64,000 nucleotides of DNA from a virus, in IMG/VR virus record IMGVR_UViG_3300042879_006196, positions 62,001 through 126,000 of that record; one strand, 5' to 3'. The notes under the pieces were generated by a model that made no database searches, was not told where the DNA came from, and worked only from the letters and a program-made list of their open reading frames with translations. Shown here piece by piece: positions 1 to 58,662 of this stretch. How positions within the stretch are numbered: position 1 is the first letter of the stretch; every line of letters starts with the position of its first letter. The position numbers and the translations under genes are program-made.

Positions 1-99
1 CGAGAATTGCTCGCTGTTGCCAGAGAAGGTGGCTCAATCGGCACCTTTTACAATACAAGGCTTCGACCCTTGCCTATAACAAAGTCAGATTCTTTCTGA
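1..99 (+). CDS. C-terminal end of a KTSC-like small protein (cut by window edge)
   Basis: Frame 1 from the window edge reads 32 codons to TGA at 97-99. The peptide resembles the end of the gene at 5836-6093: both have an ELL.VA.EGGS.GTFYN core followed by an R.LPI.K tail. The pattern (a GGS-G-FYN step after a vR..p segment) looks like the KTSC domain family of small proteins of uncertain function. The start lies outside the window. The two copies bracket the accessory array, suggesting duplication with it. Family assignment is by eye only. Confidence 0.55.
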   Translation, partial: RELLAVAREGGSIGTFYNTRLRPLPITKSDSF

Positions 100-101
100 A
101 T

Positions 102-125
102 GATAGGGGAATAAAATCCCCTATC
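102..125 (+). terminator. Hairpin after the partial KTSC-like gene
   Basis: A perfect 8-bp stem (GATAGGGG / CCCCTATC, 102-109 and 118-125) closes an 8-nt AT loop directly after the stop codon. A short T-run (131-134) follows, which is also the start of the next promoter cassette. Related AGGGGATAAATTCCCCT hairpins follow the paralogous gene near 6100-6175, so gene and terminator were copied together. Confidence 0.6.
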
Positions 126-167
126 TAAAATTTTCCAGGTTTAACAAAACCTGATTATAATGAATGT

Positions 168-316
168 AAGAACGAAAGTTCTACAAGGTGACGACTCTGC
201 ACCTTGAGGGGAACGGAATTGCCCCTTGAAACCAGTAGCTCCTGTCAAATGGAGTGACGACATCTATTAAGTGCTTTGGGAATAGTTTCTAGAAAGAGGC
301 TATTCCCCCTCCAAGA
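168..316 (+). ncRNA. Candidate structured small RNA driven by an array promoter
   Basis: The cassette promoter at 131-161 leads into about 150 nt with no usable reading frame (the ATG at 164 is followed at once by TAA). Instead it holds five successive hairpins: GAAC-GAAA-GTTC with a GNRA-type loop (170-181), CAAGGTG/CACCTTG (184-206), AGGGG/CCCCT (207-226), CTCC/GGAG (239-254) and the 8-bp GGGAATAG/CTATTCCC (278-307). It ends at the next cassette terminator. Every other cassette drives an ORF, so this looks like a dedicated non-coding RNA. I do not recognise its family. Confidence 0.55.
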
Positions 317-366
317 GCCCCGCCGCCCGCTTTTTCCAGGTTTAACACAATCTGATTATAATAGAT

Positions 367-765
367 ATGACATTAGAACAACTGCAACAAATCTTTCCAG
401 GTGCTACGGCTGATACTTGGCATCAGCACCCAAACGGTGGTGGATGGGTGCAAAATACTGCAAAGGTATATGAAACTGCTTGGGTTGGCAAAGATGCCGT
501 AGTGTATGGGGATGCTGTGGTGCTTTGGAATTCTTCTATATCGGGGAATGCTAGGGTGTTGGCTGACGGGTATGGGTCTGGAGGAGAAGAAATGACCTTA
601 GAAAAAGCGTTGGAGCGGATTGAGTTCCTTGAGAACGCTCTGAACGGAGCGATTGGTTCCTGCATTAAGGATGAGGAATGTGATTTCACGAAAAAGCCAG
701 AACTGGTGGAATACATTAAGCAAAACTGGTTGAATGCATTAATCAAAGAAATAGATAATGAATAA
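367..765 (+). CDS. Array protein: beta-helix-like N-terminus joined to a small helical module
   Basis: 132 aa. The start is fixed by the cassette (TATAATAGAT then ATG). Residues about 18-66 contain short repeats such as AWVGKDAVVYGDAVV and SSISGNARV, resembling left-handed beta-helix (hexapeptide) strands. From residue 75 a different module begins, MTLEKALERIEFLENAL, which is duplicated in the next gene. A strong SD (GGAGGAGAAGAA) lies directly before the in-frame ATG at 591, so the second module may also be made separately. Function unknown. Confidence 0.6.
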   Translation: MTLEQLQQIFPGATADTWHQHPNGGGWVQNTAKVYETAWVGKDAVVYGDAVVLWNSSISGNARVLADGYGSGGEEMTLEKALERIEFLENALNGAIGSCIKDEECDFTKKPELVEYIKQNWLNALIKEIDNE

Positions 766-964
766 CATGACATTAGAAGAGGCATTGAAACGGATTGAGT
801 TCCTTGAGAACGCTTTAGACCAAGCCATTGACTTGGCAGTAATCCGAACTTGGGATTTAGGATATATTGTAGCAGGTTATGGTGGTGATAATGCAACTTA
901 TGACGTTAGAGAGCCACAAAGAGCTTTTCCTGCTCTAGTGGAATACTTGGAGGGGAAGGAGTGA
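758..964 (+). CDS. Small helical protein, paralogue of the preceding gene's C-terminus
   Basis: 68 aa (or 65 aa from ATG 767). The start overlaps the previous stop, implying translational coupling. The N-terminus MTLEEALKRIEFLENALDQA is nearly the same as the module starting at 591, with a 24-bp identical stretch of DNA, so the two arose by recent duplication. The remainder differs. The homologous module starts at MTLE, which favours ATG 767. Function unknown. Confidence 0.55.
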   Translation: MNNMTLEEALKRIEFLENALDQAIDLAVIRTWDLGYIVAGYGGDNATYDVREPQRAFPALVEYLEGKE

Positions 965-1029
965 AAACCCCCTCCAAGAGTTTCGCTGCCCGCTTTTTCC
1001 AGGTTTAACACAATCTGATTATAATAGAT

Positions 1030-1248
1030 GTGATGTTACCTTACGAATATCTCAACGAAGTGCTTCAAAAGGGCGTTTGCCCAAATTGCAACAAGCCCAG
1101 CAAGTCTATTGACTTCCAATTCTCATATGGCGTGTACGCTGGTGTGATGTGCACTAAATGTGCCATCAATGGCTACAGAGACTCCTGCGGTCACAAGCGA
1201 CCAATGGGCACTAGAGCCGAGTACGAGTCCTTTGGAGAGGATTATTAA
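1030..1248 (+). CDS. Small zinc-binding protein of the array
   Basis: 72 aa. The cassette places GTG (1030) exactly where other units have ATG; an ATG follows immediately at 1033. Two CxxC pairs (CPNC near residue 17 and CTKC near 41), with another Cys and a His in DSCGHK near 52-55, suggest one structural zinc site. It is a single-gene unit with its own promoter and terminator. No family recognised. Confidence 0.65.
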   Translation: MMLPYEYLNEVLQKGVCPNCNKPSKSIDFQFSYGVYAGVMCTKCAINGYRDSCGHKRPMGTRAEYESFGEDY

Positions 1249-1311
1249 TCCCCCTCCAAAGGGGCGGCAGATCGTTTTTTCCAGGTTTAACACAATCTGA
1301 TTATAATAGAT

Positions 1312-1515
1312 ATGAGCAGTGATACAAAAGAATCGTTGGTTGTACTATCTCTCCTCGGAGGATTTGTTCCGTTGGTCTTTGCAATAGTGTGTCTCCCCAA
1401 GTATACGGAAGCCTCACTTTATTGGCTGAAGTTCGCCATGACCGCTTCAATTGTGTGTCCCGCAGTTGGATTTACAATTGACAGAGTGTGGAGAAAAGTC
1501 ACAAAAAATGACTAG
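1312..1515 (+). CDS. Small two-helix membrane protein
   Basis: 67 aa, starting at the cassette ATG. Two hydrophobic segments (about residues 9-27 and 36-55) are joined by a short polar loop, and the C-terminus is basic (RVWRKVTKND). This is the layout of a small inner-membrane protein. It is the first gene of a two-gene unit and overlaps the next by 8 nt. Function unknown; an early host-takeover or exclusion role would be a guess. Confidence 0.65.
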   Translation: MSSDTKESLVVLSLLGGFVPLVFAIVCLPKYTEASLYWLKFAMTASIVCPAVGFTIDRVWRKVTKND

Positions 1516-1723
1516 CATCTATGAAGAACTCAAAAACGCTGGTGTGGAAATCTCCAACTGGCAAAGTGACCTTTATTGTCCAAAAAATGCCCAGACTATC
1601 CCAATAGTCAAAAAGTATGAAAAAGAACACTATATTTCTACTTTCAAAAACTTAAACGACGGTCTCACTTGGTATGATGTTGCTTTTGCTTACGACCCTT
1701 ACTGGTCAAAATTAGGAAAGTAA
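1508..1723 (+). CDS. Small array protein, unknown function
   Basis: 71 aa from the ATG at 1508, which overlaps the upstream stop. A longer frame from 1451 would run far into the membrane-protein gene and is less likely. The protein starts MTSIYEELKNAGVEISNWQS and ends in an aromatic-rich segment. It is probably co-transcribed and coupled with the gene at 1312. No recognisable family. Confidence 0.55.
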   Translation: MTSIYEELKNAGVEISNWQSDLYCPKNAQTIPIVKKYEKEHYISTFKNLNDGLTWYDVAFAYDPYWSKLGK

Positions 1724-1786
1724 TTCCCCTCCAAGGGGGCGGCAGACCATTTTTTCCAGGTTTAACACAATCTGATTATAATAAAT

Positions 1787-1981
1787 ATGAGCAATAAAAA
1801 GGCTTCAATCAAAAAACGAATAACAATGAATGGCAAAACATCAATTGTTGAAATAGATGTCTTCCAGCCCACTGGACATATGTCTTACTCAGGATTCGGT
1901 GCTCATGGAAGACAAAATCGAAAATCCGAGCGTCGCCAAAATCGAGCTGAAGCTCGCAACGTAATGAGAGGTGCATTTTAA
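1787..1981 (+). CDS. Small basic array protein
   Basis: 64 aa from the cassette ATG (TATAATAAAT before it). Strongly basic with an Arg-rich C-terminal third (RQNRKSERRQNRAEARN), suggestive of nucleic-acid binding. It is followed by a 41-aa acidic gene whose ATG overlaps its stop, so a basic/acidic pair is co-expressed. Function unknown. Confidence 0.6.
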   Translation: MSNKKASIKKRITMNGKTSIVEIDVFQPTGHMSYSGFGAHGRQNRKSERRQNRAEARNVMRGAF

Positions 1982-2106
1982 TGATTGACCCAAATGAATA
2001 CAAAGATGACTCTATATCTTTTGATGACGGTTCTCAATTAATTCTGCCCGACATAGAAATTTCTGATGATAATTGGGCATTTGGCACTCTAGATGTTGAA
2101 ACTTGA
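1981..2106 (+). CDS. Very small acidic protein (41 aa)
   Basis: A 41-aa frame starts at ATG 1981, overlapping the previous stop (TAATG), and ends at TGA 2104-2106. It is strongly acidic (MIDPNEYKDDSISFDDGSQ at the N-terminus). Its position directly after a basic protein suggests they may interact. The tRNA promoter begins at its stop codon. Confidence 0.45.
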   Translation: MIDPNEYKDDSISFDDGSQLILPDIEISDDNWAFGTLDVET

Positions 2107-2125
2107 TGTATAATACTACAGTTCA

Positions 2126-2202
2126 GCCTCTCCATAGCTCAGTGGATAGAGCAACTGCCTTCTAAGCAGTAGGTCGGAGGTTCGAGTCCTCTTGGGGAGG
2201 CT
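2126..2202 (+). tRNA. tRNA-Arg (UCU)
   Basis: A full cloverleaf: acceptor GCCTCTC pairing with GGGAGGC (one G-U), D arm with AGCTCAGTGG, anticodon stem ACTGC/GCAGT with loop CTTCTAA giving anticodon TCT, variable loop, and T arm GGAGG-TTCGAGT-CCTCT. It decodes AGA, a common codon in this AT-rich genome. CCA is not encoded, so a CCA-adding enzyme is needed. A TGTATAAT box lies 11 nt upstream (2107-2114). Confidence 0.93.
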
Positions 2203-2271
2203 GAGCAATCCCCCTCCAAGAGGGTGGCAGCCCGTTTTTTCCAGGTTTAACATTTCCTGATTATAATAGAT

Positions 2272-2373
2272 ATGGAGTTACTAAAAAACATAGTGGTTGT
2301 TCTTGAAGCATTAGCAGCCATTGGGATTTTCATCGTTCTTGCTAAGATTTGGAAGCAAAACAGCAATCGCTAA
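2272..2373 (+). CDS. 33-aa single-helix membrane peptide
   Basis: Starts at a cassette ATG (2272) and stops at TAA 2371-2373. About 20 hydrophobic residues (IVVVLEALAAIGIFIVLA) are followed by a basic tail (KIWKQNSNR), the form of a single-pass membrane microprotein. Its own promoter and a strong following terminator support it being real. Function unknown. Confidence 0.6.
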   Translation: MELLKNIVVVLEALAAIGIFIVLAKIWKQNSNR

Positions 2374-2387
2374 ATCGCCACTTCCCC

Positions 2388-2411
2388 AGCTCCCCTCGAT
2401 TGAGGGGAGCT
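2388..2411 (+). terminator. Strong hairpin after the 33-aa membrane peptide gene
   Basis: A perfect 10-bp stem, AGCTCCCCTC / GAGGGGAGCT, with a 4-nt loop (GATT) lies 15 nt after the stop codon. It precedes the usual cassette terminator element, so this unit has two in series. Confidence 0.6.
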
Positions 2412-2477
2412 GTTCCCCCTCCAAAGGCTTCGCCGCCCGCTTTTTCCAGGTTTAACACAATCTGATTATAATAGATA

Positions 2478-2735
2478 TTGAAAGTGATAGAAAAAACAAA
2501 GAAAGAAACAATAAAGTCTAGGAAAAAATATACAATTAATTATATTCAAGACCTTGGTAATCTTACTTTTATTGTTGAAGAAAAATTCAGTAGCTTAAAA
2601 AAAGCTATTGAGAGGGTGCAAGAAAAAGAAGCATTTTGGATACAAGAGTGTTTTGATGAAGATTTAGGAATATTTGAGCTCAAGCCCCGAATCGCTGGAG
2701 AGCTTGAATTACGATATTCTCTCAGATTTGAGTAA
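2478..2735 (+). CDS. Small array protein with a TTG start
   Basis: 85 aa. In this unit the base triplet at the usual ATG position reads ATT, and the open frame starts one base later at TTG (2478); GTG at 2484 is an alternative. The N-terminal 20 residues are very Lys-rich, followed by a mixed alpha/beta region. It may be a cassette whose start codon has drifted. Function unknown. Confidence 0.5.
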   Translation: MKVIEKTKKETIKSRKKYTINYIQDLGNLTFIVEEKFSSLKKAIERVQEKEAFWIQECFDEDLGIFELKPRIAGELELRYSLRFE

Positions 2736-2811
2736 CACTCTGAAACTTAACCCCTCCAAAGGCTTCGCCGCCCGCTTTTTCCAGGTTTAACACAATCTGA
2801 TTATAATAAAT

Positions 2812-3231
2812 ATGACACTGAAAGATTTTGAGAAAGAGCTTCGCGTAAAAGTTTTAGCAACTTGGGGAACTGTTATAAAGCCTGCAAACTATGGAAAGTT
2901 TACAGATATTAAAGTGAGAGTTTCTTCAGGTGATGAGTTGTTTATTGTTGAAGTTAACTGGGAACATGATGAAAAGTGCTTCAATAAGTATGCTGATTTC
3001 ACAGGCGAATATTCAACGGATGTAATGCTCGATGAAACTGATATTTATGCTTCAGGGTGTTTTGCTCAATTCAAAATACATAGAAAAAGAAGAACTTTTG
3101 AAATAGGTTTAGTAGGCGAGCATTTTAATGATTTTGAATACTTAGGTTTCAAAAATCTAAAGTATGGAGTGCAATTGTATTTCGAAAATAGACAAGCTCT
3201 AGGTTCTTTCAGAGAATTTAGTGATGTTTAA
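2812..3231 (+). CDS. Array protein, unknown function (139 aa)
   Basis: Starts at a cassette ATG and is the sole gene of its unit. Alternating charged and aromatic segments (for example FIVEVNWEHDEKCF and FKIHRKRRTFEIGLV) suggest a compact alpha/beta or all-beta domain with no membrane segments. No family recognised. Confidence 0.6.
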   Translation: MTLKDFEKELRVKVLATWGTVIKPANYGKFTDIKVRVSSGDELFIVEVNWEHDEKCFNKYADFTGEYSTDVMLDETDIYASGCFAQFKIHRKRRTFEIGLVGEHFNDFEYLGFKNLKYGVQLYFENRQALGSFREFSDV

Positions 3232-3292
3232 CCCCTCCAAAGGGGAGGCAGATCGTGTTTTCCAGGTTTAACACAATCTGATTATAATAGAT

Positions 3293-3490
3293 ATGAGCAA
3301 CGTGTTTGAACAAAGATTCTACAATGGTCAGGGTAATACATCAATTGAAAAATGCCGATACTTTGGAGAGTCTCATGCTTCTTATGAATGGCATAGACAA
3401 CTTGACCCAAGATGGACAGATGAACAGCAAAAAGCATATCATGAAGGCTATGATATGGTTCTTGAGGAATTGAAGAGAAACAAAAATTAA
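3293..3490 (+). CDS. Small array protein, unknown function (65 aa)
   Basis: Cassette ATG start, single-gene unit. Rich in aromatic and charged residues (YEWHRQLDPRWTDEQQKAY), probably helical in its C-terminal half. No known motif seen. Confidence 0.55.
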   Translation: MSNVFEQRFYNGQGNTSIEKCRYFGESHASYEWHRQLDPRWTDEQQKAYHEGYDMVLEELKRNKN

Positions 3491-3554
3491 ATCCCCCTCC
3501 AAGGGGGCGGCAGATCGTGTTTTCCAGGTTTAACATTTTCGAATTATAATAGAT

Positions 3555-3890
3555 ATGACACCAAGAGAAATTAAAAAGTTGATTGAGCGAATGGCAACTA
3601 ATGGTTTTACCTTAGTAGATGGATTCTTTCACCGACACATATACACTGGTAGAAAGTTGTATAGTGACGTGGTTAAGTTTGAGGATGCCTTGAATTGGCT
3701 CGAAAAGCCTGTTCTCACTGAAAGAATAAGAGACGAAGATATTATGGTGTTTATAAAAAATTATGGCAACGATGTAGCCGCTCGCTATGATGGTTGTTTA
3801 ATTTATGCGTCTATTAGTGGCTTTCGTGACAAAAGACTCACAGATGAACAAGTGGACGCCATTCATAAACAATGGCTTAAGTTACGCTGA
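3555..3890 (+). CDS. Array protein, unknown function (111 aa)
   Basis: Cassette ATG start. Its promoter is the most divergent of the intact copies (ATTTTCGAAT before TATAAT instead of ACAATCTGAT), so it may respond differently. The protein ends RLTDEQVDAIHKQWLKLR, a helix. No family recognised. Confidence 0.6.
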   Translation: MTPREIKKLIERMATNGFTLVDGFFHRHIYTGRKLYSDVVKFEDALNWLEKPVLTERIRDEDIMVFIKNYGNDVAARYDGCLIYASISGFRDKRLTDEQVDAIHKQWLKLR

Positions 3891-3954
3891 TTTCCCCTCC
3901 AAAGGGGCGGCAGATCGTGTTTTCCAGGTTTAACACAATCTGATTATAATAGAT

Positions 3955-4581
3955 ATGATTCAATACAAGCAGTCGCAAAAACTAAAGAAGCTTCAATTGG
4001 AAAAGAACTTTGCAGAAGCAAACTGGCAAGAAGTTGAAGCGGAATGTAAAATCATCGACTCAGAAAATTCGGCGTTGCATAAAGAGAAATCTCAAGAACT
4101 TCAAAATCATATCAAAGCTATTGAATCTATTTGCAATCTGACTAAAGCCCAAAGTAAATACTTGAATGGATTCTATGCTCCAATCGTTTATACAAGAGAA
4201 GTTGATACTCTGCAAAGAATAAAAAGCAACTACGAAGGCATAATCAAGGAAAAAGAAAAACAAGAAATGTTGGCTAAACAGCAAGAATATCAAGCTAATT
4301 TGCAACAAAAAGCAATTATCTTTTTACTTGAAAATGGTAAAGTTCTTGGACAAGATTTTACTTTGGAAAATGCAATAAATTCTGCTAATAAATTGAAGTT
4401 TAAGCAACTAATTAAAGAGAAACTAGAAAGTTCAAGTGAATTCTCTTTTGACGGTGAAACTTGTGATGAAGATTGTGGTTGGGATGGTATGGGTCACAGA
4501 TGTTTCTGTGGTTGCCGAAGAGTAGATTGGGAATATAACGGCAATTTTGACAATATGTATATTTATGCCCAAGCATACTAA
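3955..4581 (+). CDS. Coiled-coil protein with a Cys-rich C-terminus
   Basis: 208 aa, cassette ATG start, the largest gene of the array. Residues about 5-125 are charged and helical, compatible with coiled coil (KLKKLQLEKNFAEANWQEVE). Near residues 168-190 a cluster CDEDCGWDGMGHRCFCGCRR offers five Cys and one His for one or two metal sites. The combination suggests a dimeric regulator or adaptor, but I cannot name it. Confidence 0.6.
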   Translation: MIQYKQSQKLKKLQLEKNFAEANWQEVEAECKIIDSENSALHKEKSQELQNHIKAIESICNLTKAQSKYLNGFYAPIVYTREVDTLQRIKSNYEGIIKEKEKQEMLAKQQEYQANLQQKAIIFLLENGKVLGQDFTLENAINSANKLKFKQLIKEKLESSSEFSFDGETCDEDCGWDGMGHRCFCGCRRVDWEYNGNFDNMYIYAQAY

Positions 4582-4643
4582 CCCCCTCCAAAGGGGAGGC
4601 AGATTGTTTTTTCCAGGTTTAACACAATCTGATTATAATAGAT

Positions 4644-4814
4644 ATGAGCGACAAAGAATTGAAGCTGATGATTGCTGGACAATGCCTCACGGGGTTGCTT
4701 GCAAATAATTCTCCTTGGAATAACGAATTAAGCCGACCAGCGCTTGTAGACTTTGCTTGGGGGGTTGCAACAGCTTTAATGGAGTTAAGTAAAGAGGAAG
4801 AGGAGAAGAAATGA
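4644..4814 (+). CDS. 56-aa small protein, first gene of a two-gene unit
   Basis: Starts at a cassette ATG (4644) and ends at TGA 4812-4814, overlapping the next ATG by four bases (ATGA). The middle is mildly hydrophobic and the tail acidic (ELSKEEEEKK). The tail codons double as the SD (GAGGAGAAGAA) of the next gene. Function unknown. Confidence 0.6.
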   Translation: MSDKELKLMIAGQCLTGLLANNSPWNNELSRPALVDFAWGVATALMELSKEEEEKK

Positions 4815-5059
4815 CGCTAAGAGAGTGCATCAAACAAGAACTTAACTATCCCCGTAAAATGCATGGAAGTATTGTTGTTTACCGTGTAAGGCGGGATGGG
4901 GCAACTACATACACCTGTGCGGAGTGGGCTTTGCTTGAAAACAGACCACCCGTTGCAGAAATTTGGCGGGATTGGGGGAACAAAGAATGGCAAGTAAGTT
5001 ATTATAGAAAGCCAACAAAGCAAGAAAAAAAGGTGATAGATGCCTTTAGTTGTTTGTAG
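4811..5059 (+). CDS. Small array protein, SD-initiated second gene
   Basis: 82 aa. Preceded by AGGAGAAGAA just before ATG, a good Shine-Dalgarno site, unlike the leaderless first genes of the units. Contains basic and aromatic residues with Trp-rich stretches (AEIWRDWGNKEWQVSYY). Coupled with the 56-aa gene upstream. No family recognised. Confidence 0.6.
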   Translation: MTLRECIKQELNYPRKMHGSIVVYRVRRDGATTYTCAEWALLENRPPVAEIWRDWGNKEWQVSYYRKPTKQEKKVIDAFSCL

Positions 5060-5102
5060 GGGAAGGATTAAGTCCCTCCCCCTCCAAGAGGGTGGCAGCC
5101 CG

Positions 5103-5202
5103 TTTTTTCCAGGTTTAACATTTTCTGATTATAATAATTATTTACAAATTTTTTTTCAAAAAATATTTTTTCCAGGTTTAACATTTTCTGATTATAATAG
5201 AT
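5103..5202 (+). promoter_or_regulatory. Tandem pair of array promoters
   Basis: Two cassette promoters (5103-5141 and 5165-5202), both of the ATTTTCTGAT subtype, lie head to tail, separated by an AT-rich 30-bp stretch. Only the second is positioned for a start codon (GTG 5203). The first lacks an ORF and would give a transcript with a short leader running through the second. Confidence 0.65.
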
Positions 5203-5637
5203 GTGATACACATTCACGCAACCAATCTAGGAGTCAGGTTTGGAACCTCTGACACTACTCTCGTTACTGCAAAAGACTATGATTGGGACTTCCAATTGTC
5301 TACCGAAGCCACTTCCAACGATAAGGACGTTATCGTGTTAAAAATGCCCGAAAACATGGCATTGGAACTATTCTGGGAATACTGCCGTAAAGAAGCATCG
5401 AGCCACCTTCTTTTGCACATTAGTGCTCTATTAGACGAAACTCCAAAAGAGCACATTGTTGAACAACTCCGTTGGTCAGTTGAAATACTGACTGATGATA
5501 GAAATAACAAAGTATTTGGGCGGGTAATCAAGCGTTCCGAGGCGTACATGGCAAAAGATATTGAGAATTTGCTTTTCTATAATCAAGAGCTTAAACTTTA
5601 TGCTCTATTGGATGAGGCTTATTTTTTCCAGGTTTAA
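5203..5637 (+). CDS. Array protein, unknown function (144 aa)
   Basis: The cassette puts GTG at 5203 in the usual ATG position. Mixed alpha/beta composition, no membrane segments. The last codons (FFQV-stop) are supplied by the next promoter cassette itself (TTTTTCCAGGTTTAA), so cassette insertion or copying appears to have reshaped the C-terminus. Function unknown. Confidence 0.6.
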   Translation: MIHIHATNLGVRFGTSDTTLVTAKDYDWDFQLSTEATSNDKDVIVLKMPENMALELFWEYCRKEASSHLLLHISALLDETPKEHIVEQLRWSVEILTDDRNNKVFGRVIKRSEAYMAKDIENLLFYNQELKLYALLDEAYFFQV

Positions 5638-5654
5638 CATTTCCTGATTATAAT

Positions 5655-5683
5655 AATTGCCATAGAAAAAAACTATGGCAATT
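5655..5683. promoter_or_regulatory. Perfect inverted repeat over a promoter start site
   Basis: AATTGCCATAG (5655-5665), a 7-nt A spacer, then CTATGGCAATT (5673-5683): 11 bp per arm. It begins immediately after the TATAAT of the cassette at 5622-5654, so it covers the predicted transcription start. This is where a repressor site would sit. No ORF follows, so the promoter may be silenced or may make a hairpin RNA. Confidence 0.5.
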
Positions 5684-5835
5684 ATATCTAGTTTGCAAAA
5701 ATCTATGACAAATTTTCCAGGTTTAACAAAACCTGATTATAATATAGTTGCAAAAAATTAAAAAATTTTTTGGCGGCGGAGCCTTTGGAGGGGAAAAAAA
5801 TTTTCCAGGTTTAACATTTTCTGATTATAATAGAT
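5684..5835 (+). promoter_or_regulatory. Gene-free promoter cluster with an inverted terminator element
   Basis: Two more cassette promoters (5713-5746 and 5801-5835) flank GGCGGCGGAGCCTTTGGAGG (5771-5790), the reverse complement of the terminator element that normally precedes each cassette. The first promoter drives no ORF; the second serves the gene at 5836. It looks like a site of cassette rearrangement. Confidence 0.55.
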
Positions 5836-6093
5836 ATGGTTAAGAACCATAAAATCAAAAAAAGCAAAGGCAAGGTAACCATCCTCCCTGAAGCTTCTTT
5901 CGTCGAACGACTTGAACTGAAAGGCAATAACCTGAAGTTCAAAATGAAATCAGGTGATAGCGTATATTCTACCGTTTTGAATCCTGAAAACATTTCAGAA
6001 TTGCTTACCGTAGCAACCGAAGGCGGTAGCCTTGGCACTTTTTATAATTCCGTTGTAAGGAAGTTGCCGATAGAAAAGGTAGCAACCTTCTAG
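5836..6093 (+). CDS. KTSC-like small protein
   Basis: 85 aa, cassette ATG start. A basic N-terminus leads to a segment that fits the KTSC pattern: LKFKMKSGDSVYS, then a variable region, then GGSLGTFYNSVVRKLP. KTSC proteins are small, and some are fused to lysyl-tRNA synthetase, but their role is unclear. The partial gene at 1-99 is a paralogue. The gene is followed by an AGGGGATAAATTCCCCT hairpin. Confidence 0.6.
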   Translation: MVKNHKIKKSKGKVTILPEASFVERLELKGNNLKFKMKSGDSVYSTVLNPENISELLTVATEGGSLGTFYNSVVRKLPIEKVATF

Positions 6094-6385
6094 ACAATTT
6101 AGGGGATAAATTCCCCTATTCCATTTTTTCCAGTTTTAACAAATTCTAGACAGAATAGGGGATAAATTCCCCTATTCCATTTTTTCCAGGTTTAACACAA
6201 TCTGAATTATAATGTATATACAGATTGTGGGGTGGGGTTTTTATTTTGCTATAGATAGCGAAAGGGGCACCTTTTTTTATTTTCAGATTGTGTCGTAGCC
6301 TATATATAGGGAGGGGGGGGAGGTTTTTCTCACACAATCTGACCCCCCCTTCTTTTTTCTAGGCCCCTCGTTTACACCGACACTA
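6094..6385. other. Gene-free control region: decayed promoters, G-tracts, motif inversions
   Basis: No gene seen. It holds two copies of an AGGGGATAAATTCCCCT hairpin plus CATTTTTTCCAG (6102-6135 and 6158-6190), the first promoter copy degenerate and the second with an extra A before TATAAT. CAGATTGTG occurs on the plus strand at 6222 and 6284, and CACAATCTGA at 6332, giving the octamer in both orientations around G-runs (6226-6238, 6310-6321) and a C-run (6342-6348). It leads directly into the iterons. Confidence 0.6.
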
Positions 6386-6511
6386 CACAATCTAAAAACC
6401 ACAATCTGAGAATCACAATCTAAAAACCACAATCTAAAAACCACAATCTAAAAATCACAATCTAAAAACCACAATCTGAGAATCACAATCTGAGAATCAC
6501 AATTTTTTAGT
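6386..6511 (+). repeat. Nine 14-bp iterons carrying CACAATCT
   Basis: CACAATCT starts at 6386, 6400, 6414, 6428, 6442, 6456, 6470 and 6484, exactly 14 bp apart, with a decayed ninth copy (CACAATTT) at 6498. The 6-bp remainder alternates between two types, AAAAAC/AAAAAT and GAGAAT. Regular directly repeated short sites beside AT-rich DNA are typical of replication-initiator binding arrays. The same octamer recurs through the window, so one protein probably binds all of them. Confidence 0.85.
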
Positions 6512-6909: not shown

Positions 6910-8466
6910 GTGTGGTATAGATATTGCAGATTAATTATAGCTGGCAAAGAACATATAATTAAAAAGATCATTGGTTATTTTAGAGAACAAGGGATTGGAC
7001 AAGTTGACTTAGATAATCTCCAACACAATCTGAATACCTTAGATAAGAATAATTTATTACCAGCGAGAATAGAACCTAGAAAAGATGGTGTATTTTTTGG
7101 TGATAGATTGTATGAAGATTTTTTAGAATTTCAAGAAATAGTGGATGGATTATATGGAGAATATAAATTAAGACAAAAAACAAAAGAACAAAAGAAATTA
7201 AGAGAAGAAAAAATAGAATTTGTTCCAGGTAAAACATCTGTTTATCCATGTAATAGTGTAAATGATGCGATCAAATATGGGGTTGGTACAGATTGGTGTA
7301 TTTCTCAACCTGGTAATGGAAATTATGATTCATATAGATCCGACTATCAATCTACATTTTATTATGTACAAGATAACACTAGACAATCTGATGATCCTTT
7401 ATCTAGAGTAATGGTGGATATACAAGCAAATGGTGTTGTCAAACTCACTGATATAAATAATACCACTGGTACAATAGCTGAATTTGGTACAGATTGGAAA
7501 AAGTATTTCGAGTATTTGGAAAAAAGTGGTGTAGATATTTCTCAATTTGTTAATAAACCTTTGACACAAGAAGAGATAGAAGAAAATAAGTTGATTGGTA
7601 AAGAAATAAATGATTTGGAGAAATTTGAAAAATTACCATTAGAATATAAATTCAAATACATTGGTCGTGGTCATTTATTAACGACAAAACAATTGGAGTC
7701 TATTATTAATCTTCAATCTGTTCATAGCAATGATGTAAAAAATACATTGATAAAACATTATTTAAAAACAGGAAGATCTTTACCAGCAATTCAAAAATTC
7801 ATTTTATTTGAAAGCAATCAAGGATGGAGAACAACATACATAAGAAGTAGAAAAATAGTAATAGATCAAATTAGAAAAAATTTATTGGATGACGACGAAG
7901 TAGCTCGCGAATTTCTAGATGCTGATGAAAGGGCTCTTTATGAAAATCCATTGAAATCAACAAATATTGTTGTGAAAAATATTGAAGATTTTGATTTTTT
8001 ATTAACTAAAGGTGTAAGTTTAAATCAGTTTAATTGGTCTAGTGTTTCTCAGATTCGTAATTTATCTGAAGATTTTATAAGAGAATATAAAGATAAAGTG
8101 GATTGGCTTGATATTTCTACTTATCCAAGATTATCTGAAGATTTTATCAGAGAATTTCAAGATAAGGTGTACTGGTGGATAATTTCTCAATATCAAACAT
8201 TATCTGAAGATTTTATAAGAGAATTTCAAGATAAGGTAAAATGGGGAACAATTTCTTACACACAGGAATTATCTGAAGATTTTATAAGAGAATTTAAAGA
8301 TAAGGTGGATTGGGAGAAAATTTCCAGATATCAAAAATTATCTGAAGATTTTATAAGAGAATTTAAAGATAAGGTGGATTGGTATTATATACGGTGGAAC
8401 GAGAATATTTCCGATGAAACCAAACGCAATCTGCAAGCACAAGGATTTCCTATAAAAATTTACTAA
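6910..8466 (+). CDS. MWY-tagged repeat protein 1 (five 23-residue repeats)
   Basis: 518 aa from a GTG start inside AGATTGTGTGG. Three parts: an N-terminal segment MWYRYCRLIIAGKEHIIKK shared with two paralogues; a central domain (about 95-225) with PGKTSVYPC, GTDWCIS, STFYYVQD and DPLSRVMVD motifs; and five C-terminal repeats (about 390-505) of the form LSEDFIREFQDKVxWxxIS, 23 residues each, predicted as a helical solenoid. The repeats resemble those in some large-virus hypothetical proteins. The role is unknown; a host-interaction or virion-associated binding protein is possible. It heads a cluster of three paralogues. Confidence 0.7.
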   Translation: MWYRYCRLIIAGKEHIIKKIIGYFREQGIGQVDLDNLQHNLNTLDKNNLLPARIEPRKDGVFFGDRLYEDFLEFQEIVDGLYGEYKLRQKTKEQKKLREEKIEFVPGKTSVYPCNSVNDAIKYGVGTDWCISQPGNGNYDSYRSDYQSTFYYVQDNTRQSDDPLSRVMVDIQANGVVKLTDINNTTGTIAEFGTDWKKYFEYLEKSGVDISQFVNKPLTQEEIEENKLIGKEINDLEKFEKLPLEYKFKYIGRGHLLTTKQLESIINLQSVHSNDVKNTLIKHYLKTGRSLPAIQKFILFESNQGWRTTYIRSRKIVIDQIRKNLLDDDEVAREFLDADERALYENPLKSTNIVVKNIEDFDFLLTKGVSLNQFNWSSVSQIRNLSEDFIREYKDKVDWLDISTYPRLSEDFIREFQDKVYWWIISQYQTLSEDFIREFQDKVKWGTISYTQELSEDFIREFKDKVDWEKISRYQKLSEDFIREFKDKVDWYYIRWNENISDETKRNLQAQGFPIKIY

Positions 8467-8490
8467 TTTTTGAACAAATCATATTTTTTA

Positions 8491-8504
8491 TCGTATAATA
8501 ATAA
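8491..8504 (+). promoter_or_regulatory. tRNA operon promoter
   Basis: TCGTATAATAATAA: the TATAAT hexamer (8494-8499) lies 6 nt before the mature tRNA-Met 5' end at 8505-8506. If the transcript starts at the tRNA end, this sets the hexamer-to-start distance, and the same distance elsewhere places starts at the ATG. Confidence 0.6.
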
Positions 8505-8579
8505 TGCGGGGTGGAGCAGAGGTAGCTTGTCTGGCTCATAACCAGAAGGTCGTGGGTTCAAATCCCTCCCCCGCACCCA
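8505..8579 (+). tRNA. Initiator-like tRNA-Met (CAU)
   Basis: Cloverleaf with anticodon loop CTCATAA (CAT). It resembles bacterial initiator tRNA: GCGGGGTGGAGCAG, GGTAGCT, GGCTCATAACC, AAGGTCGT and GGTTCAAATCC are all shared with the E. coli fMet tRNA. D-stem pair A11-U24, an initiator hallmark, is present. Position 1 would be U opposite A72, a weak pair in place of C1-A72. Only two of the three anticodon-stem G-C pairs are kept (29-41 is U-A). With this numbering CCA is encoded at 8577-8579. An elongator Met or an Ile-lysidine tRNA is less likely. Confidence 0.85.
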
Positions 8580-8580
8580 A

Positions 8581-8654
8581 GCTCCGATCGTCTAGCGGTT
8601 TAGGACATCGCTCTTTCACGGCGAAGATCACGGGTTCGAATCCCGTTCGGAGTA
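8581..8654 (+). tRNA. tRNA-Glu (UUC)
   Basis: Starts one base after the previous tRNA's CCA. Acceptor GCTCCGA with TCGGAGT (G1-U72 wobble), anticodon stem TCGCT/GGCGA, loop CTTTCAC giving anticodon TTC, T arm ACGGG-TTCGAAT-CCCGT. It closely follows the bacterial tRNA-Glu pattern. CCA is not encoded. It decodes GAA, one of the commonest codons here. Confidence 0.95.
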
Positions 8655-8677
8655 ATTAAAAAAGATTGGAATAAAAT

Positions 8678-9424
8678 ATGTATTTACCTTTATTAGCTTT
8701 TTCCCTTTTCACACAATCTACTTTAGATGACACACAATGTAGAAAGGCATTAAATGAAATTCTCCCTATGATGCGCACAACCAATGCTATGAGTTTTAGA
8801 TTAGAGGGGGAGAATGAATACAAGGGGTTTTTTACAAAATATTCGGGCAGTTTTAAATGGTTCAAAAATGAATCTGTGATAAAGTCAGAGTTAAAGTTAT
8901 CGCGAGATCAGATTGGCTTACAAAGAATTGTGGCTGATGGTAAAAAGATTTGGGCACACAATCTGCAAAGAAATGAATATACAGTGGCTCGTTATTCTTT
9001 AGAATTATCTGTGGGCGAAGATTACATGAAAAGATATATAAATGGTGTAAAGTACCCTGTGCTAGGGATGGGGCAACATTTAATGACACTTGCAGATCAG
9101 GTAGGTTTTGTATCACCTTCTCTCAAAGACTGGATTGGTGGTATTGAGTGGCAGGGAAAATTAGAAATAGATAAAAATAATTCTTTAAGAATTGTGAAGA
9201 GAATTTATCAGATTGTGGCTGATTATCGTTATGTGGTTTGGGAGCTTGAATCATTTGATGAGGGTGTCACATTTAATTTTTCAAGCATAAAGATTTACAA
9301 TAAAAGTTTTGATGGGTCAACCACCACCACATATCTTTATTTGGACGATTGTGTGGGTGCGGATCATTTAGGATTTAAATTTGTTCCTCCATCTGGCAGC
9401 AAAGTATTATGGATAAAAGATTGA
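8678..9424 (+). CDS. Secreted LolA-like protein
   Basis: 248 aa. The N-terminus MYLPLLAFSLFTQS is a short hydrophobic signal-like segment. The body (about 25-180) resembles the LolA/DUF2092 fold: repeated beta-strands with a 'GxFxWFKNESVIKSELKL' strand pair and VADGKKIWAHNLQRNEYTVA, like the usual 'dGktlw.ydp..n.yt' motif of lipoprotein-carrier-like proteins. Such proteins bind lipid or lipoprotein acyl chains in the periplasm. A host-derived gene is likely. No clear SD; GGAATAAAAT precedes the ATG. Assignment is by pattern only. Confidence 0.5.
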   Translation: MYLPLLAFSLFTQSTLDDTQCRKALNEILPMMRTTNAMSFRLEGENEYKGFFTKYSGSFKWFKNESVIKSELKLSRDQIGLQRIVADGKKIWAHNLQRNEYTVARYSLELSVGEDYMKRYINGVKYPVLGMGQHLMTLADQVGFVSPSLKDWIGGIEWQGKLEIDKNNSLRIVKRIYQIVADYRYVVWELESFDEGVTFNFSSIKIYNKSFDGSTTTTYLYLDDCVGADHLGFKFVPPSGSKVLWIKD

Positions 9425-9460
9425 GAAGGAAGATTTTTTCTCATTCTATAATACTATACT

Positions 9461-9883
9461 ATGAACAAACACAATCTATTAAACAAAATAGCTTCAATTG
9501 CTACAGAACTCGACGTAAAAGGTTTCACAAAGGAAGCAAAGACCTTGGATAATGTGTTAATTAGAGTGGCGGATATTAATCCTGAAGAATATTGGGATAA
9601 AGAATGGAGAAGAGAGTTTCGTGAAGAAGAAAGAACTATTGTTCCAACAAAAAAAGTTTGGGAGTATGTTAAAAGCGCACACACTAAAGAATTAGAATAC
9701 GCACTTGAAGGTGGCGGCTTAGACGTGAAAAATTTTGCTGAATTTTGCTGGTCTTTAAAAGATGAAAATTTAAACAACATGATCAAAAATAGCCCAGATC
9801 TTAATTGGGCATGGTTGGAAGAAGCATTTATAGATCATTTGGAATATATTCAACATTCTAAGTTTGACTCAGAACCAGAATGA
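9461..9883 (+). CDS. Tagged protein A (IASIATELD N-terminal module)
   Basis: 140 aa. Residues 5-30 (NLLNKIASIATELDVKGFTK onward) form a two-helix module that is nearly identical in the next gene and in the minus-strand gene at 19990. The remainder is acidic and Trp-rich and shares nothing with those proteins. A shared N-terminal module on otherwise unrelated proteins suggests a targeting or cleavable propeptide. TATAATACTATACT directly precedes the ATG, so the mRNA is nearly leaderless. Confidence 0.6.
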   Translation: MNKHNLLNKIASIATELDVKGFTKEAKTLDNVLIRVADINPEEYWDKEWRREFREEERTIVPTKKVWEYVKSAHTKELEYALEGGGLDVKNFAEFCWSLKDENLNNMIKNSPDLNWAWLEEAFIDHLEYIQHSKFDSEPE

Positions 9884-9975
9884 TTAGGAGGGAGGCTAAT
9901 TTTACGATTAAGCTTCCCCCGAAAAGGTGCGCTTTTTCTAACGTAAATCAATTTTCACATTTAAAGGAGAAAAAA

Positions 9976-10551
9976 ATGAACAAACACAATCTGCTAAAAC
10001 GAATTGCTTCTGTTGCCACAGAGCTTGATATGAAGGGTTTCACTAAGGAAGCAAAACATTTAGATTCTATGCTTTTAAGGTTGGCTATGGATGATGACAT
10101 GCCTGAAATTGAAAAAAGTATTGATAGTGTCACTCCAACTTTTCAAGATTGGGAAGGTTTAAATGCCTTGAATGGTATTTTGATTAGTGTGCTTGGCGGT
10201 CGTAAAGATTTAGACAAAAATTACTATCATGGTGTTGACATTATCATGGATCTTGTTAATGATATTTTCACTGAGTTGAAAAACTTTAATAAATTAAATG
10301 CTAATGAAAATTTTGAACAAAAACAAGATTTGGGCATGGAAATAAAAATGCTTCTTGACACTGTTAGGGATGAGACAAAAGCTTTAATTAAAGAATTTAG
10401 AATTACTTTAGATATGGGTAGGCAAATAATTTTGGATCATGCTTATGATTTAGTGGACAAATTCAAAGATACAATAGATGATTTGTTGGATATGAGCTCT
10501 CTTGACTTTTTACCTAAAAATGATGAACAGTGGCCTGACAAACTGTATTGA
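9976..10551 (+). CDS. Tagged protein B (IASVATELD N-terminal module)
   Basis: 191 aa from ATG 9976, chosen because AAAGGAG lies 6 nt upstream and because the product then begins MNKHNLLKRIASVATELDMK, matching its neighbour. The remainder is a long helical region with several LD/LI heptad-like stretches. A longer frame from 9880 would run through the SD and is rejected. Probably made with the previous gene. Function unknown. Confidence 0.65.
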   Translation: MNKHNLLKRIASVATELDMKGFTKEAKHLDSMLLRLAMDDDMPEIEKSIDSVTPTFQDWEGLNALNGILISVLGGRKDLDKNYYHGVDIIMDLVNDIFTELKNFNKLNANENFEQKQDLGMEIKMLLDTVRDETKALIKEFRITLDMGRQIILDHAYDLVDKFKDTIDDLLDMSSLDFLPKNDEQWPDKLY

Positions 10552-10590
10552 TTAAAAGGAAGAGCACCGCGCAAAATTTAAATATAGATT

Positions 10591-12891: not shown

Positions 12892-12900
12892 TTTAAGATT

Positions 12901-14598
12901 GTGTGGTATAGATATTGCAGATTAATTATAGCTGGCAAAGAACATATAATTAAAAATGTCATTAATTATTTTAGACAAAAAGGCGAAATTGAAGACAATC
13001 TAAATGAAATTTATCGCAAGCTTTTGGATCTTGACAAATCCAACAAAATACAAAATATTGGAATAATAGAAGATAAAGTTAATTTTAATGATAATTCATT
13101 CAATAATTTTATAGATTTTTCAGAAAAAATAGATGAATTACATACAAATTATTTTTGGTTGAAGCAACAAGAAAAATTAAAAAAGGAACAAAAAGAATTA
13201 CAAAAAAATGAAATAGAATTTGTTCCAGGTAAAATATCTGTTTATCCATGTAATGATGTAAGTGATACAATCAAATATGGAGCTGGTACAAGTTGGTGTA
13301 TTTCTAGACCTGGTAATCGCATGTATGATTCATATAGATCCAGCAATCAATCCACATTTTATTATGTGCAAGATGGAACTAGGCAATCTGATGATCCATT
13401 ATCAAGGGTAATGATAGATAGGCAGAAAAATGGTGTTGTCAAGCTCACTGATATTAATAACCGTACTGGCACAATAGCTGAGTTTGGTACAGATTGGCAA
13501 GCATATTTTGACTATTTGGAAAGCAAAGGCGTAAAAACTTCTCAATTTGTTAATAAACCTAGAACACAAGAAGAAATTGAAGAGACTAAAAAATTAGGCA
13601 CAAAAAAAGACAATTTAGTATGGTTTAAAAACTTAACAAACGATGAAAAATCAAAATATATTGGAAGAGGTCACCTATTAACTAATAAACAATTAGAATA
13701 TTTATTATCAAGAGATGATATAGGCAAATTATTAATTCCTCAATATTTAAATACTGGTGTTAGTTTGCCTCCAAAACAAAAAAAAATGTTATTTTCTAAC
13801 AAACAATATGAAAATACATATTATAAAAATATTGAAATTGCACATCAAGAAATTAAAAAATACTGCTTTTCAAAACACAGTGATAATATTGCTTGTGAGT
13901 TAGAAATTTTAATAAATGCATTAGAAACAAATCAATTTGAACTTGTAGAAGAATATCAAAATAGAATTAATTTGTTAGACATTGAAAACTTTGAACCCAT
14001 TCCTAATTTTTATGATGATGAAGATGATGAAGATGAAGATGATGATGAAGATGATGAAGAGGTTATTTTTATCGACGGGCGAGCTTATACTTTTAATTTG
14101 AGTGTTAATATTTCAGTGGAAATGGCTGAATTTTTATACGAAATAGGAGCTGCTGAAGACAATTTAAATGAGATCTGCCACATGCGAGGATTATCTGAAG
14201 ATTTTATAAGAGAATTTCAAGATAAGGTGAATTGGAGGGCAGTATCTGAATATCAAACATTATCTGTAGATTTTATAAGAGAATTTCAAAATAAGATAGA
14301 AGAAACAAGATCTTGGGATAGAATTTCTGGATATCAAAAATTATCTGAAGATTTTATAAGAGAATTTAAAGATAAGTTGAGTTGGGATAGAATTTCTGGA
14401 TATCAAAAATTATCTGAAGATTTTATAAGAGAATTTAAAGATAAGTTGAGTTGGGGGAAAATTTCTTATTTCCAAAAATTATCTGAAGATTTTATAAGAG
14501 AATTTCAGGATAAAGTGAATTGGGAGTATATACAGAGCAACGAAAATATATCTGATGAAACCAAACACAATCTGAAAGCGCAAGGATTTCCGATGTAA
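12901..14598 (+). CDS. MWY-tagged repeat protein 3 (five repeats, acidic insert)
   Basis: 565 aa, GTG start 9 bp after the previous stop. N-terminal and central domains match the two paralogues (GTSWCIS, STFYYVQD, DPLSRVMID). An Asp/Glu-only run (about 367-381) and a short unique domain separate these from five C-terminal repeats. Two adjacent repeats carry an identical 69-bp DNA unit, a sign of very recent duplication. Function unknown. Confidence 0.7.
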   Translation: MWYRYCRLIIAGKEHIIKNVINYFRQKGEIEDNLNEIYRKLLDLDKSNKIQNIGIIEDKVNFNDNSFNNFIDFSEKIDELHTNYFWLKQQEKLKKEQKELQKNEIEFVPGKISVYPCNDVSDTIKYGAGTSWCISRPGNRMYDSYRSSNQSTFYYVQDGTRQSDDPLSRVMIDRQKNGVVKLTDINNRTGTIAEFGTDWQAYFDYLESKGVKTSQFVNKPRTQEEIEETKKLGTKKDNLVWFKNLTNDEKSKYIGRGHLLTNKQLEYLLSRDDIGKLLIPQYLNTGVSLPPKQKKMLFSNKQYENTYYKNIEIAHQEIKKYCFSKHSDNIACELEILINALETNQFELVEEYQNRINLLDIENFEPIPNFYDDEDDEDEDDDEDDEEVIFIDGRAYTFNLSVNISVEMAEFLYEIGAAEDNLNEICHMRGLSEDFIREFQDKVNWRAVSEYQTLSVDFIREFQNKIEETRSWDRISGYQKLSEDFIREFKDKLSWDRISGYQKLSEDFIREFKDKLSWGKISYFQKLSEDFIREFQDKVNWEYIQSNENISDETKHNLKAQGFPM

Positions 14599-57942: not shown

Positions 57943-58662
57943 ATGGTTGAAACGGATCTAATTCTTCACGCTCTTGTAGTAAAAGCTAAAAATGGTGACC
58001 AAAGGTCTTTTGATCAAATATTAACAATCCTTGACCCCGATATTAAAAAATTAGCCCACAAATATTACATCGTCGGCAGTGATGAAAACGATGTAATCCA
58101 AGAGTGTAGAATTGGGGTTTGGAAAGCAGTGAAAGATTTTGATGATTCAATGGGCATGACTTTTAAAAACTTCAGTTTGAGTTTGTGTTGCAAGAGGCAT
58201 TTAATCACTGCAATGTCTCATGCAAACACACAAAAATTCAAACTTCAAAATGAAGCTGTATCATTAAGTGCCCCTGTTTCTTTAAATGAAGAAGATGGGA
58301 TTCAAACTTATGCAGATTATATTCCAGATCAAAATTCTGATTTGTTAGAAAATTATATAATTCAAGAAGAATTTGAAACTAATTTAGGGCTTATTTCAGA
58401 CAAACTTACTAAATTAGAAATGTCAATATTTACACAATATGCCTATAATTCTTCTTATAAAGACATTGCAAAAGCACTTGATGTCAAACCAAAAACTGTT
58501 GATAATGCTTTGATGCGAATTCGTAAAAAAAGCGCGGAATCTTACCAAATATATTTGACTTCATTTTCTCAAATTAATATTGGTATAGCTTCGTATATTA
58601 ACTTACATGAAGGCGAAATTATACAAGAATTTATTGGAATCAGCACTTTCACGATGCTTTGA
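57943..58662 (+). CDS. RNA polymerase sigma factor, SigH-like
   Basis: 239 aa. Region 2: LAHKYYIVGSDENDVIQECR then IGVWKAVKDFDDSMGMTFKN and FSLSLCCKRHLITAM closely follow Bacillus SigH (YFLVGADREDIVQEGMIG...). Region 4: LTKLEMSIFTQYAYNSSYKD and IAKALDVKPKTVDNALMRIR. It would redirect host polymerase to phage promoters. TGTAAAAT lies 7 nt before the ATG. The C-terminal 35 residues overlap the clamp gene and may be variable. Confidence 0.88.
   Translation: MVETDLILHALVVKAKNGDQRSFDQILTILDPDIKKLAHKYYIVGSDENDVIQECRIGVWKAVKDFDDSMGMTFKNFSLSLCCKRHLITAMSHANTQKFKLQNEAVSLSAPVSLNEEDGIQTYADYIPDQNSDLLENYIIQEEFETNLGLISDKLTKLEMSIFTQYAYNSSYKDIAKALDVKPKTVDNALMRIRKKSAESYQIYLTSFSQINIGIASYINLHEGEIIQEFIGISTFTML

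Follow-up and report, generated by a model that had tools for sequence, protein, structure and literature searches.

An array of promoter cassettes with a fixed start codon in a jumbo phage: a probable platform for leaderless expression and shuffling of mostly small genes

Phage accessory genes turn over fast, and the question that arises is how a newly captured open reading frame (ORF) comes to be expressed promptly. This question is raised by a 64,000-nt stretch of IMG/VR record IMGVR_UViG_3300042879_006196 (hereafter the window), the first 6.2 kb of which carry mostly small genes behind copies of a single promoter-like cassette. The window corresponds to G000:C1:62001-126000 of a 347,392-base jumbo phage record; coordinates prefixed C1 are those of the record. 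From the sequence, we consider it likely that these promoter early stem-loop (PeSL)-like cassettes produce leaderless mRNAs and together form a platform on which mostly small genes are shuffled.

A repeated cassette and its start codon

An exact search of all 64 kb on both strands with the box sequence TTTCCAGGTTTAACA returned 18 copies between 132 and 6183, all on the + strand; the − strand and the other 58 kb of the window have no copy. When box position 8 was left free a nineteenth box was added, at 6127, which has no −10 hexamer; the original prediction, made from the letters alone, had spoken of about 19 cassettes, and the array is confirmed as real and larger than reported. Across the whole record, TTTCCAG-N-TTTAACA (position 8 free) occurs 79 times on a single strand, with 76 boxes at C1:1225-68183 (22 before 44 kb and 54 after) and the others at 320340, 330036 and 335692. 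The array region, C1:1.2-68.2 kb (~67 kb), holds 76 boxes, 75 of them with a −10, and the first 6.2 kb of the window are its right-hand end. Using TAnnnT as the −10 rule, a filter set in this analysis, we found a hexamer after 78 of the 79 boxes, separated by 9 nt in 77 and by 10 nt in one; it reads TATAAT in 70 cases, TATATT in five and something else once each in three. The spacer between box and TATAAT in the window is 9 nt, with 10 nt only at 6183, and not the 10-bp variable part originally described.

A start codon stands exactly 4 nt after the hexamer at 57 of the 78 boxes (53 ATG, three GTG and one TTG). When TATAAT-Nk-ATG was counted on the + strand of the record, k=4 gave 60 sites and any other k in 0-20 gave 1-13; a − strand peak at TATAAT-N6-ATG (24 sites) was dropped, being the reverse complement of the cassettes save for two sites. 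The fixed start opens ORFs of at least 40 aa in 55 of 57 cases, compared with 154 of 554 for all ATGs in C1:44.0-68.3 kb. Median length among the 67 cassette ORFs is 94 aa, and 50 of them are ≤ 150 aa. Among the 18 window boxes with a −10, 11 have ATG (10) or GTG (one) at 4 nt, with ORFs of 33-208 aa; the box at 996 has an in-frame GTG at 4 nt and ATG at 7, that at 2443 has TTG at 5 nt, that at 5714 only a TTG with 31 aa, and those at 132, 5106, 5625 and 6183 have no start codon. The features of the window are as follows.

132..161, +, promoter cassette 1 (box + N9 + TATAAT), before structured RNA, no ORF
166..255, +, structured RNA core, limits by eye
333..362, +, promoter cassette 2, box match
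367..765, +, ORF behind cassette 2, ATG at 4 nt; internal in-frame ATG with Shine-Dalgarno (SD) site at 592
758..964, +, second gene without cassette; its G001 ortholog is cassette-first
996..1025, +, promoter cassette 3, box match
1030..1248, +, ORF behind cassette 3, GTG at 4 nt, in-frame ATG at 7
1278..1307, +, promoter cassette 4, box match
1312..1515, +, ORF behind cassette 4
1508..1723, +, second gene with SD
1753..1782, +, promoter cassette 5, box match
1787..1981, +, ORF behind cassette 5
1981..2106, +, second gene with SD
2128..2201, +, tRNA-Arg (tct), within array
2238..2267, +, promoter cassette 6, box match
2272..2373, +, 33-aa ORF behind cassette 6
2443..2472, +, promoter cassette 7, box match
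2478..2735, +, ORF behind cassette 7, TTG at 5 nt
2778..2807, +, promoter cassette 8, box match
2812..3231, +, ORF behind cassette 8
3259..3288, +, promoter cassette 9, box match
3293..3490, +, ORF behind cassette 9
3521..3550, +, promoter cassette 10, box match
3555..3890, +, ORF behind cassette 10
3921..3950, +, promoter cassette 11, box match
3955..4581, +, ORF behind cassette 11
4610..4639, +, promoter cassette 12, box match
4644..4814, +, ORF behind cassette 12
4811..5059, +, second gene, SD GAGGAGAAGAAATG
5106..5135, +, empty cassette 13, no ORF; next box 63 nt on
5169..5198, +, promoter cassette 14, box match
5203..5637, +, ORF behind cassette 14, GTG
5625..5654, +, empty cassette 15, 13-bp hairpin 5653-5685 directly after
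5714..5743, +, cassette 16, empty or decayed
5802..5831, +, promoter cassette 17, box match
5836..6093, +, ORF behind cassette 17, 55% identical to product of cassette gene C1:61796
6127..6141, +, box without −10
6183..6213, +, last cassette, spacer 10, no start codon
57943..58662, +, sigma factor nearest SigH models, below curated cut-offs

Ten of the array proteins in the window were searched against Pfam and none reached the cut-off. At the far end of the window a transposase gene (phrog_506) lies at 61879-63069 on the − strand, and the record itself has an ATG as its very first letters and a TGA as its very last, as though trimmed to the limits of genes.

The boxes on the + strand are bimodal, with 78 sites at zero mismatches (14 positions) followed by TAnnnT and none at one to three mismatches with TAnnnT 8-10 nt on; the − strand has no sites at zero to two mismatches and six at three, a chance-like result. 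Outside C1:44-69 kb lie 25 copies, whose pairwise identity amounts to 0.96 for the box and 0.92 for the hexamer, compared with 0.43 in the 9-nt spacer (N9), 0.41 in the 4 nt before the start codon (N4), 0.27 and 0.30 in the upstream flanks and 0.31 in the coding part, the flanks and coding part being at background. Because these 25 copies were chosen by an exact box match plus the TAnnnT filter, the box figure taken alone is biased, and its control is the empty class of one to three mismatches. As box and hexamer persist among unrelated flanks, they are under constraint. A recently amplified repeat or recombination site, made uniform by gene conversion and with no strict role in expression, would have matched the inner array at C1:44-69 kb (52 boxes with a 9-nt spacer), where N9 and N4 are alike too (0.69 and 0.83) and which is younger than the outside copies. 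In those outside copies, however, N9, N4 and the flanks (0.27-0.31) have diverged and the box and hexamer have not, and a relative described below (G011) has the same design with an unrelated sequence; we regard this explanation as improbable.

Repeats of other kinds also occur in the region. The 9-mer ACACAATCT is present 336 times in the record on both strands, against ~4 expected, 39 times in the relative G001 and 65 times in G002, and at chance level in G009, G011 and G015; the commonest cassette spacer, CAATCTGAT, is formed by it. Window positions 6386-6503, with 14-bp direct repeats CACAATCTAAAAAC, are one example, and at ~5771-5794, before cassette 17, a CCCCTCCAAAGGCTTCGCCGCC stretch is found in inverted copy. 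At C1:22.6-31.5 kb (L010 595-9456), ~9 kb are rich in imperfect 12-nt repeats of the GATCAGGTGTGG type, with a recurring TTAATACAGATTGTGT motif.

Start position and candidate readers of the box

In order to call genes we used our own simple hexamer script and no published gene finder, and individual starts may be wrong. With these calls, an SD site precedes one of 66 cassette-first genes (a set that leaves out C1:335692) and 14 of 42 other + strand genes of the array, which include some behind another leaderless-like promoter (Fisher 4.1e-6). SD sites are found in second genes of a unit and in some genes further from the box. Two such second genes had been named originally; the SD at 4811 is real, whilst the site at 591 falls within ORF 367-765 and in its frame. 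In 16 of 18 old k=4 cassettes, a set that leaves out boxes with other spacings, a pyrimidine directly precedes the start codon, versus 21 of 57 SD-led genes (p=1.1e-4), the further comparison sets giving 73 of 151 for other genes and 24 of 36 for the k=6 class described below. This excess fits a leaderless start, since a pyrimidine is expected there if the next base is +1.

Bacterial RNA polymerase favours position 7 after the −10 (positions 6-9 taking 8, 55, 29 and 7%) and seldom initiates further than 1 bp before it (PMC5730371, in excerpt). In the cassettes the A of the ATG is position 5 and its G position 7. With ordinary sigma70 geometry the transcript would therefore begin at the G of the ATG; for it to include the A at position 5, initiation would have to follow another geometry, or yield a 0-2 nt leader in some unusual manner, and this start geometry is the odd part of the finding. 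Most likely, judging from the sequence, transcripts begin at, or within ~2 nt of, the start codon and are translated leaderless. The leaderless start originally proposed thus gains from the fixed 4-nt spacing in unrelated flanks, the depletion of SD sites and the pyrimidine before the start, whilst the normal sigma70 spacing proposed along with it does not agree with an A at position 5.

A second promoter class in the same phage has a different geometry. In a set of 244 confident ATG genes without a cassette, the −10 region opens with [TC]GTA at k=6 in 30, at k=5 in 14 and at k=7 in 12, with 0-6 at other k; the k=6 listing includes one cassette gene with its ATG at 6 nt (C1:58402). Outside the array, none of 41 genes with a TATA box at k=5-7 has an SD, compared with 51 of the 217 others (Fisher 7e-5). 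A TATAAT-type k=6 start peak is present in G002, G009 and G015, with fewer cases in G006 (nine) and G004 (six), and G018 has GTATACT at the matching place in 11 cases; a clear k=6-type peak is absent in G010, G012, G013 and G016, and a k=6 peak is absent also in G011. Starts of the conventional leaderless-looking kind are thus widespread in the clade; in the cassettes the spacing is shorter by 2 nt.

The boxes do not precede protein-coding genes only. Among what follows them are also a tRNA Asp-Asn-Thr cluster (C1:48876), RNAs that are structured or seem to be noncoding (boxes at C1:62132 and 59989) and an SD-led gene (C1:46754), and an isolated box at C1:320340 lies upstream of an ECF sigma gene (C1:320404) that has a leader instead of a leaderless start. 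As the same promoter is found before tRNAs and RNA genes, it is no translation signal. That the block is instead a translation or RNA-processing signal inside long polycistronic transcripts, with no promoter, might be suggested by the placement of all copies on one strand, mostly just 5′ of genes; these non-coding slots and the ECF gene with its leader speak against it, as does TAnnnT, which is kept behind 78 of 79 boxes while positions 4 and 5 vary, and we give this explanation very little credence.

The RNA at window 166-255 has a relative in G001 (2574; 71% over 83 nt, E 0.001), the counterpart lying at L104 2574-2720 in contig coordinates. In both phages its first stem begins at the fifth base after TATAAT, which the A of the ATG occupies in coding cassettes. 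Further along, one stem differs between the phages, AGGGG/CCCCT against GGAAG/CTTCC, with both sides altered at three pairs (pairing by eye). Rfam gave one chance-level match for 166-255 (E 0.66, far under the gathering score) and none for the region after C1:59989. Here ~420 nt behind a cassette, C1:60019-60440 (L009 18019-18440), possibly represent a larger RNA; no + strand ORF > 48 aa lies within, and a 97-aa ORF is present on the other strand.

As for what reads the box, a sigma70-style scan scored TTTCCA-18-TATAAT as a 10/12 match to TTGACA-18-TATAAT. The cassettes could accordingly be sigma70 promoters of the PeSL type read by the host (TTTCCA as −35, an 18-bp spacer, TATAAT), with transcription from position 7, internal start codons and a 4-nt ATG merely inherited with the copied cassette, and PeSL cassettes of T4-like phages are a known precedent (PMC4503421, in excerpt). 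Against this, the 4-nt ATG is kept in old copies though the other four bases differ, the fixed start opens long frames nearly throughout (55/57, above), and the three G001 orthologs not cut by a contig end align from the fixed ATG. Furthermore, TTTAACA within the spacer is as invariant as the rest of the box among boxes with a −10, yet sigma70 does not require it. We hold host reading to be unlikely.

Strict conservation is typical of AR9-type early promoters (PMC5312081, in excerpt), and this, along with a cassette geometry unlike the k=6 promoters of the same record, would suit a phage-encoded RNA polymerase of the phiKZ/AR9 type with its own start-site geometry. No match to PF04998 or PF00562 was found, however, in searches in which the positive controls matched 14/14, and the six frames of the record contain no DxDGD and no single-subunit motif-B-like stretch; a PF00940 search was uninformative, as no control matched. 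This alternative is in our view distinctly improbable. The invariance of the box, and a geometry unlike that of the k=6 class, lead us to prefer a phage-directed holoenzyme to plain host sigma70. One candidate reader, for one of the promoter classes, is the SigH-like sigma factor of the window (57943..58662), which is nearest to SigH models, under curated cut-offs, and has homologs in five of five relatives compared. The ECF sigma factor is itself encoded behind a box; its homolog (tblastn E 1e-4) and the box were both not found in the long relatives G009, G011 and G015, which have other small sigma-family proteins, and the G001 and G002 contigs stop short of the ECF region. A search of viral contigs with the ECF protein returned no relative.

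Several observations weigh against a leaderless platform for small genes. Position 5 falls outside the usual sigma70 start range, and leaderless genes elsewhere have their −10 motif 6-7 bp upstream (PMC12340547 and PMC3160421, in excerpt), against 4 nt in 57 of 78 cassettes. The start codon is at 2, 5, 6 or 7 nt in 10 of 78 boxes, and 11 of 78 have none nearby. The slots are not reserved for small accessory genes: of the 67 cassette ORFs, 13 are ≥ 200 aa, the largest 713, and several, for example C1:11995 and 18029, have homologs in distant relatives. The crude caller likewise finds no SD at 28 of the 42 remaining array genes. The first stem of the RNA can be extended by one pair to position 4, and its 5′ end is therefore bounded, not fixed. 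Such cassettes have so far been seen in our record and G001 alone: no box within two mismatches was found in 18 other relatives, several contigs of which do not cover the region.

The hairpins count partly on the same side. The CCCC..GGG hairpin is present at 40 of 53 boxes with a −10 in C1:44-69 kb and missing at 13, two of which have other perfect hairpins, and in 36 of 53 a gap of 9-13 nt separates the end of the best stem from the box, such that the T-run does not adjoin the stem. T-runs at the 53 boxes are of 6 nt in 27, 4 in 21, 5 in four and 7 in one. In the window CCCCTCCAA stands before 12 of 18 boxes, at four of which (333, 996, 2443 and 2778) it has no pairing partner by eye. The terminator half of the cassette is less well supported than first proposed. 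Terminator-like sites in window 1-6400, both strands, number 11 versus 6.0 (SD 2.5, standard deviation) in shuffles. The hairpins are mostly not canonical terminators; termination at some boxes is plausible.

Gene exchange among relatives and a parallel array

A near relative, G001 (62 kb, DnaE 83% identical), has eight cassettes in its first 3.5 kb by a loosened pattern, seven with an ATG at 4 nt; its box reads CAC where ours has AAC and is less strict. The order of cassette genes 49202, 50475, 60441 and 60777 in our record is 50475, 49202, 60777 and 60441 for the G001 orthologs, which are 86% (50475, over 58 aa, cut by the contig end), 94% (49202), 75% (60777) and 72% (60441) identical. Of the seven G001 genes with a 4-nt start, three are orthologs of our cassette genes in another order. 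One, at box 1682, is the ortholog of window 758-964, a second gene in our phage. Another, at box 972, encodes a repeat protein with homologs in our record only outside the array (C1:70-77 kb, plus a weak match at 305.6 kb), and the two at boxes 2752 and 3143 have no match in it at E 1e-3. G001 box 2540 precedes the structured RNA. Three large phrog_3532 paralogs with 69-nt (23-aa) repeats adjoin the array at window 6910-14598, and a G001 homolog of theirs is a cassette gene. The modular platform originally envisaged, with the same cassettes to be sought around different genes in related phages, is borne out to this extent: similar cassettes surround partly different, reordered genes in G001, and the 4-nt spacing is fixed among unrelated flanks.

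Our own array contains sets of related cassette genes (38515, 58125, 58695 and 59678; 61796 and 67802; 54310 and 55372) and empty cassettes (window 5106 and 5625). The ortholog of the C1:45101 gene in G011 lies behind that phage's own promoter, and that of C1:46040 in G015 behind a TTGACA-type promoter, each with a leader (by eye). Elsewhere, the strict cassette pattern gave no match in other viral contigs, and a broader G001-type pattern with ATG gave only G001 itself. A loose pattern matched once each in 10 viral contigs, none with ATG or GTG at 4 nt, which we took as chance; two of these, L016 and L021, have TTG at 4 nt. Among 84,980 species genomes there were four single matches, none with a start codon at 4 nt, likewise taken as chance and hence giving no lead to the host.

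The distant relative G011 (378,848 bases, DnaE 54% identical) has an array at C1:1961-59530 of its own record with a promoter unrelated in sequence, the unit order being AAAAATCCC, ATCGGATATATAA, three bases and the start codon. The 40 sites, one of which (198774) is probably a chance match, include 33 with the same internal spacing and 24 with ATG (19) or GTG (five) exactly 13 nt after GG. An SD is found at none of these 24 versus three of nine with the start codon further off (Fisher 0.015), and a pyrimidine precedes the start codon in 22 of 24. TATATA starts at −10, as the hexamer does in our cassettes, and is a poorer fit to TATAAT. A recount gave 43 core sites; four had failed the earlier box filter, of which 14938, 40339 and 366209 are promoter-like with a start codon at the fixed place and 376800 is chance-like. 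Strictness is below that of our box, the 13-mer being exact in 35 copies and with one mismatch in 10, and a scan of viral contigs with the G011 pattern found only the contig of G011. The same phage has 15 tRNAs called in C1:18.0-45.3 kb. This array points to a design that is not tied to any one sequence. More tentatively, and somewhat less likely than not, some members of the clade may have evolved a fused promoter-start-codon socket more than once from unrelated sequences, with a phage-directed factor, such as a phage sigma, that begins the RNA at the fifth nt past the −10, ahead of the ordinary polymerase by two nt. One short cassette would then supply both transcription and translation start, and any captured ORF would be expressed without a ribosome-binding site.

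Returning to the leaderless platform that we prefer, each cassette would be a complete start module, with promoter and start codon as one unit; we infer that the boxes are transcribed, with the transcript starting at or within ~2 nt of the start codon and being translated leaderless, and that the box is recognized by a phage-directed factor. Recombination between near-identical cassettes would exchange the genes in between, adding, dropping and reordering them. As each slot has its own promoter and start codon, genes would be exchangeable without a ribosome-binding site travelling with them; tRNAs, a structured RNA and empty slots do lie behind the same cassette. Early timing of the cassettes is assumed, by analogy only. 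On this reading a near-clonal promoter with a built-in start codon is a visible gene entry point. The array would allow the contribution of leaderless translation to gene capture to be tested in a natural setting, and would show a start site chosen beyond the range usual for sigma70. Box, −10 and ATG would also offer a sequence handle for small phage proteins missed by annotation.

Comparison with known systems

PeSLs of T4-like phages were reportedly described by Arbiol et al. in 2010 and Comeau et al. in 2014. They are repeated hairpin-plus-promoter cassettes between accessory genes, and our array resembles them in this arrangement and in a gene order shuffled between relatives, a trait seen here in the order in our record versus G001 and in the second gene turned cassette-first. 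It differs in a start codon locked 4 nt from the −10 without an SD, in 14 invariant box positions over 78 copies, and in a hairpin that many boxes lack or that lies well away from the T-run. By its replication genes the phage is not T4-like: our record has a DnaE-type Pol III alpha and a DnaB-like helicase, whereas a family-B polymerase serves T4; no T4 core gene was searched for. Integron attC sites have the core RYYYAAC, which GTTTAAC fits, but our element lies 5′ of genes and has a −10 inside.

Leaderless genes of Deinococcus-Thermus and Actinobacteria likewise have TANNNT just before the start codon and no SD (PMC12340547 and PMC3160421, in excerpt). The spacing of 4 nt in our cassettes differs from the 6-7 bp there (PMC12340547, in excerpt), whilst the [TC]GTAnnnn k=6 class of the same record does fit the bacterial spacing. 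The shared 15-bp upstream box is a feature of our array that the excerpted parts of PMC12340547 and PMC3160421 do not mention for bacterial leaderless genes. The early promoters of AR9 and phiKZ are similar in being highly conserved, phage-specific and present in many copies (PMC5312081, in excerpt); AR9 5′ untranslated regions, however, are of 26-491 nt (PMC5312081, in excerpt), and the phage multisubunit RNA polymerase was not found in our record by the PF04998, PF00562 and DxDGD searches. Phage cassette arrays with a locked leaderless start were not described in the literature searched, which excluded most subscription papers and the two PeSL papers. PeSLs, and leaderless genes beside −10 motifs in bacteria, are thus already known; what appears to be new is the locked, probably leaderless start in a phage cassette array.

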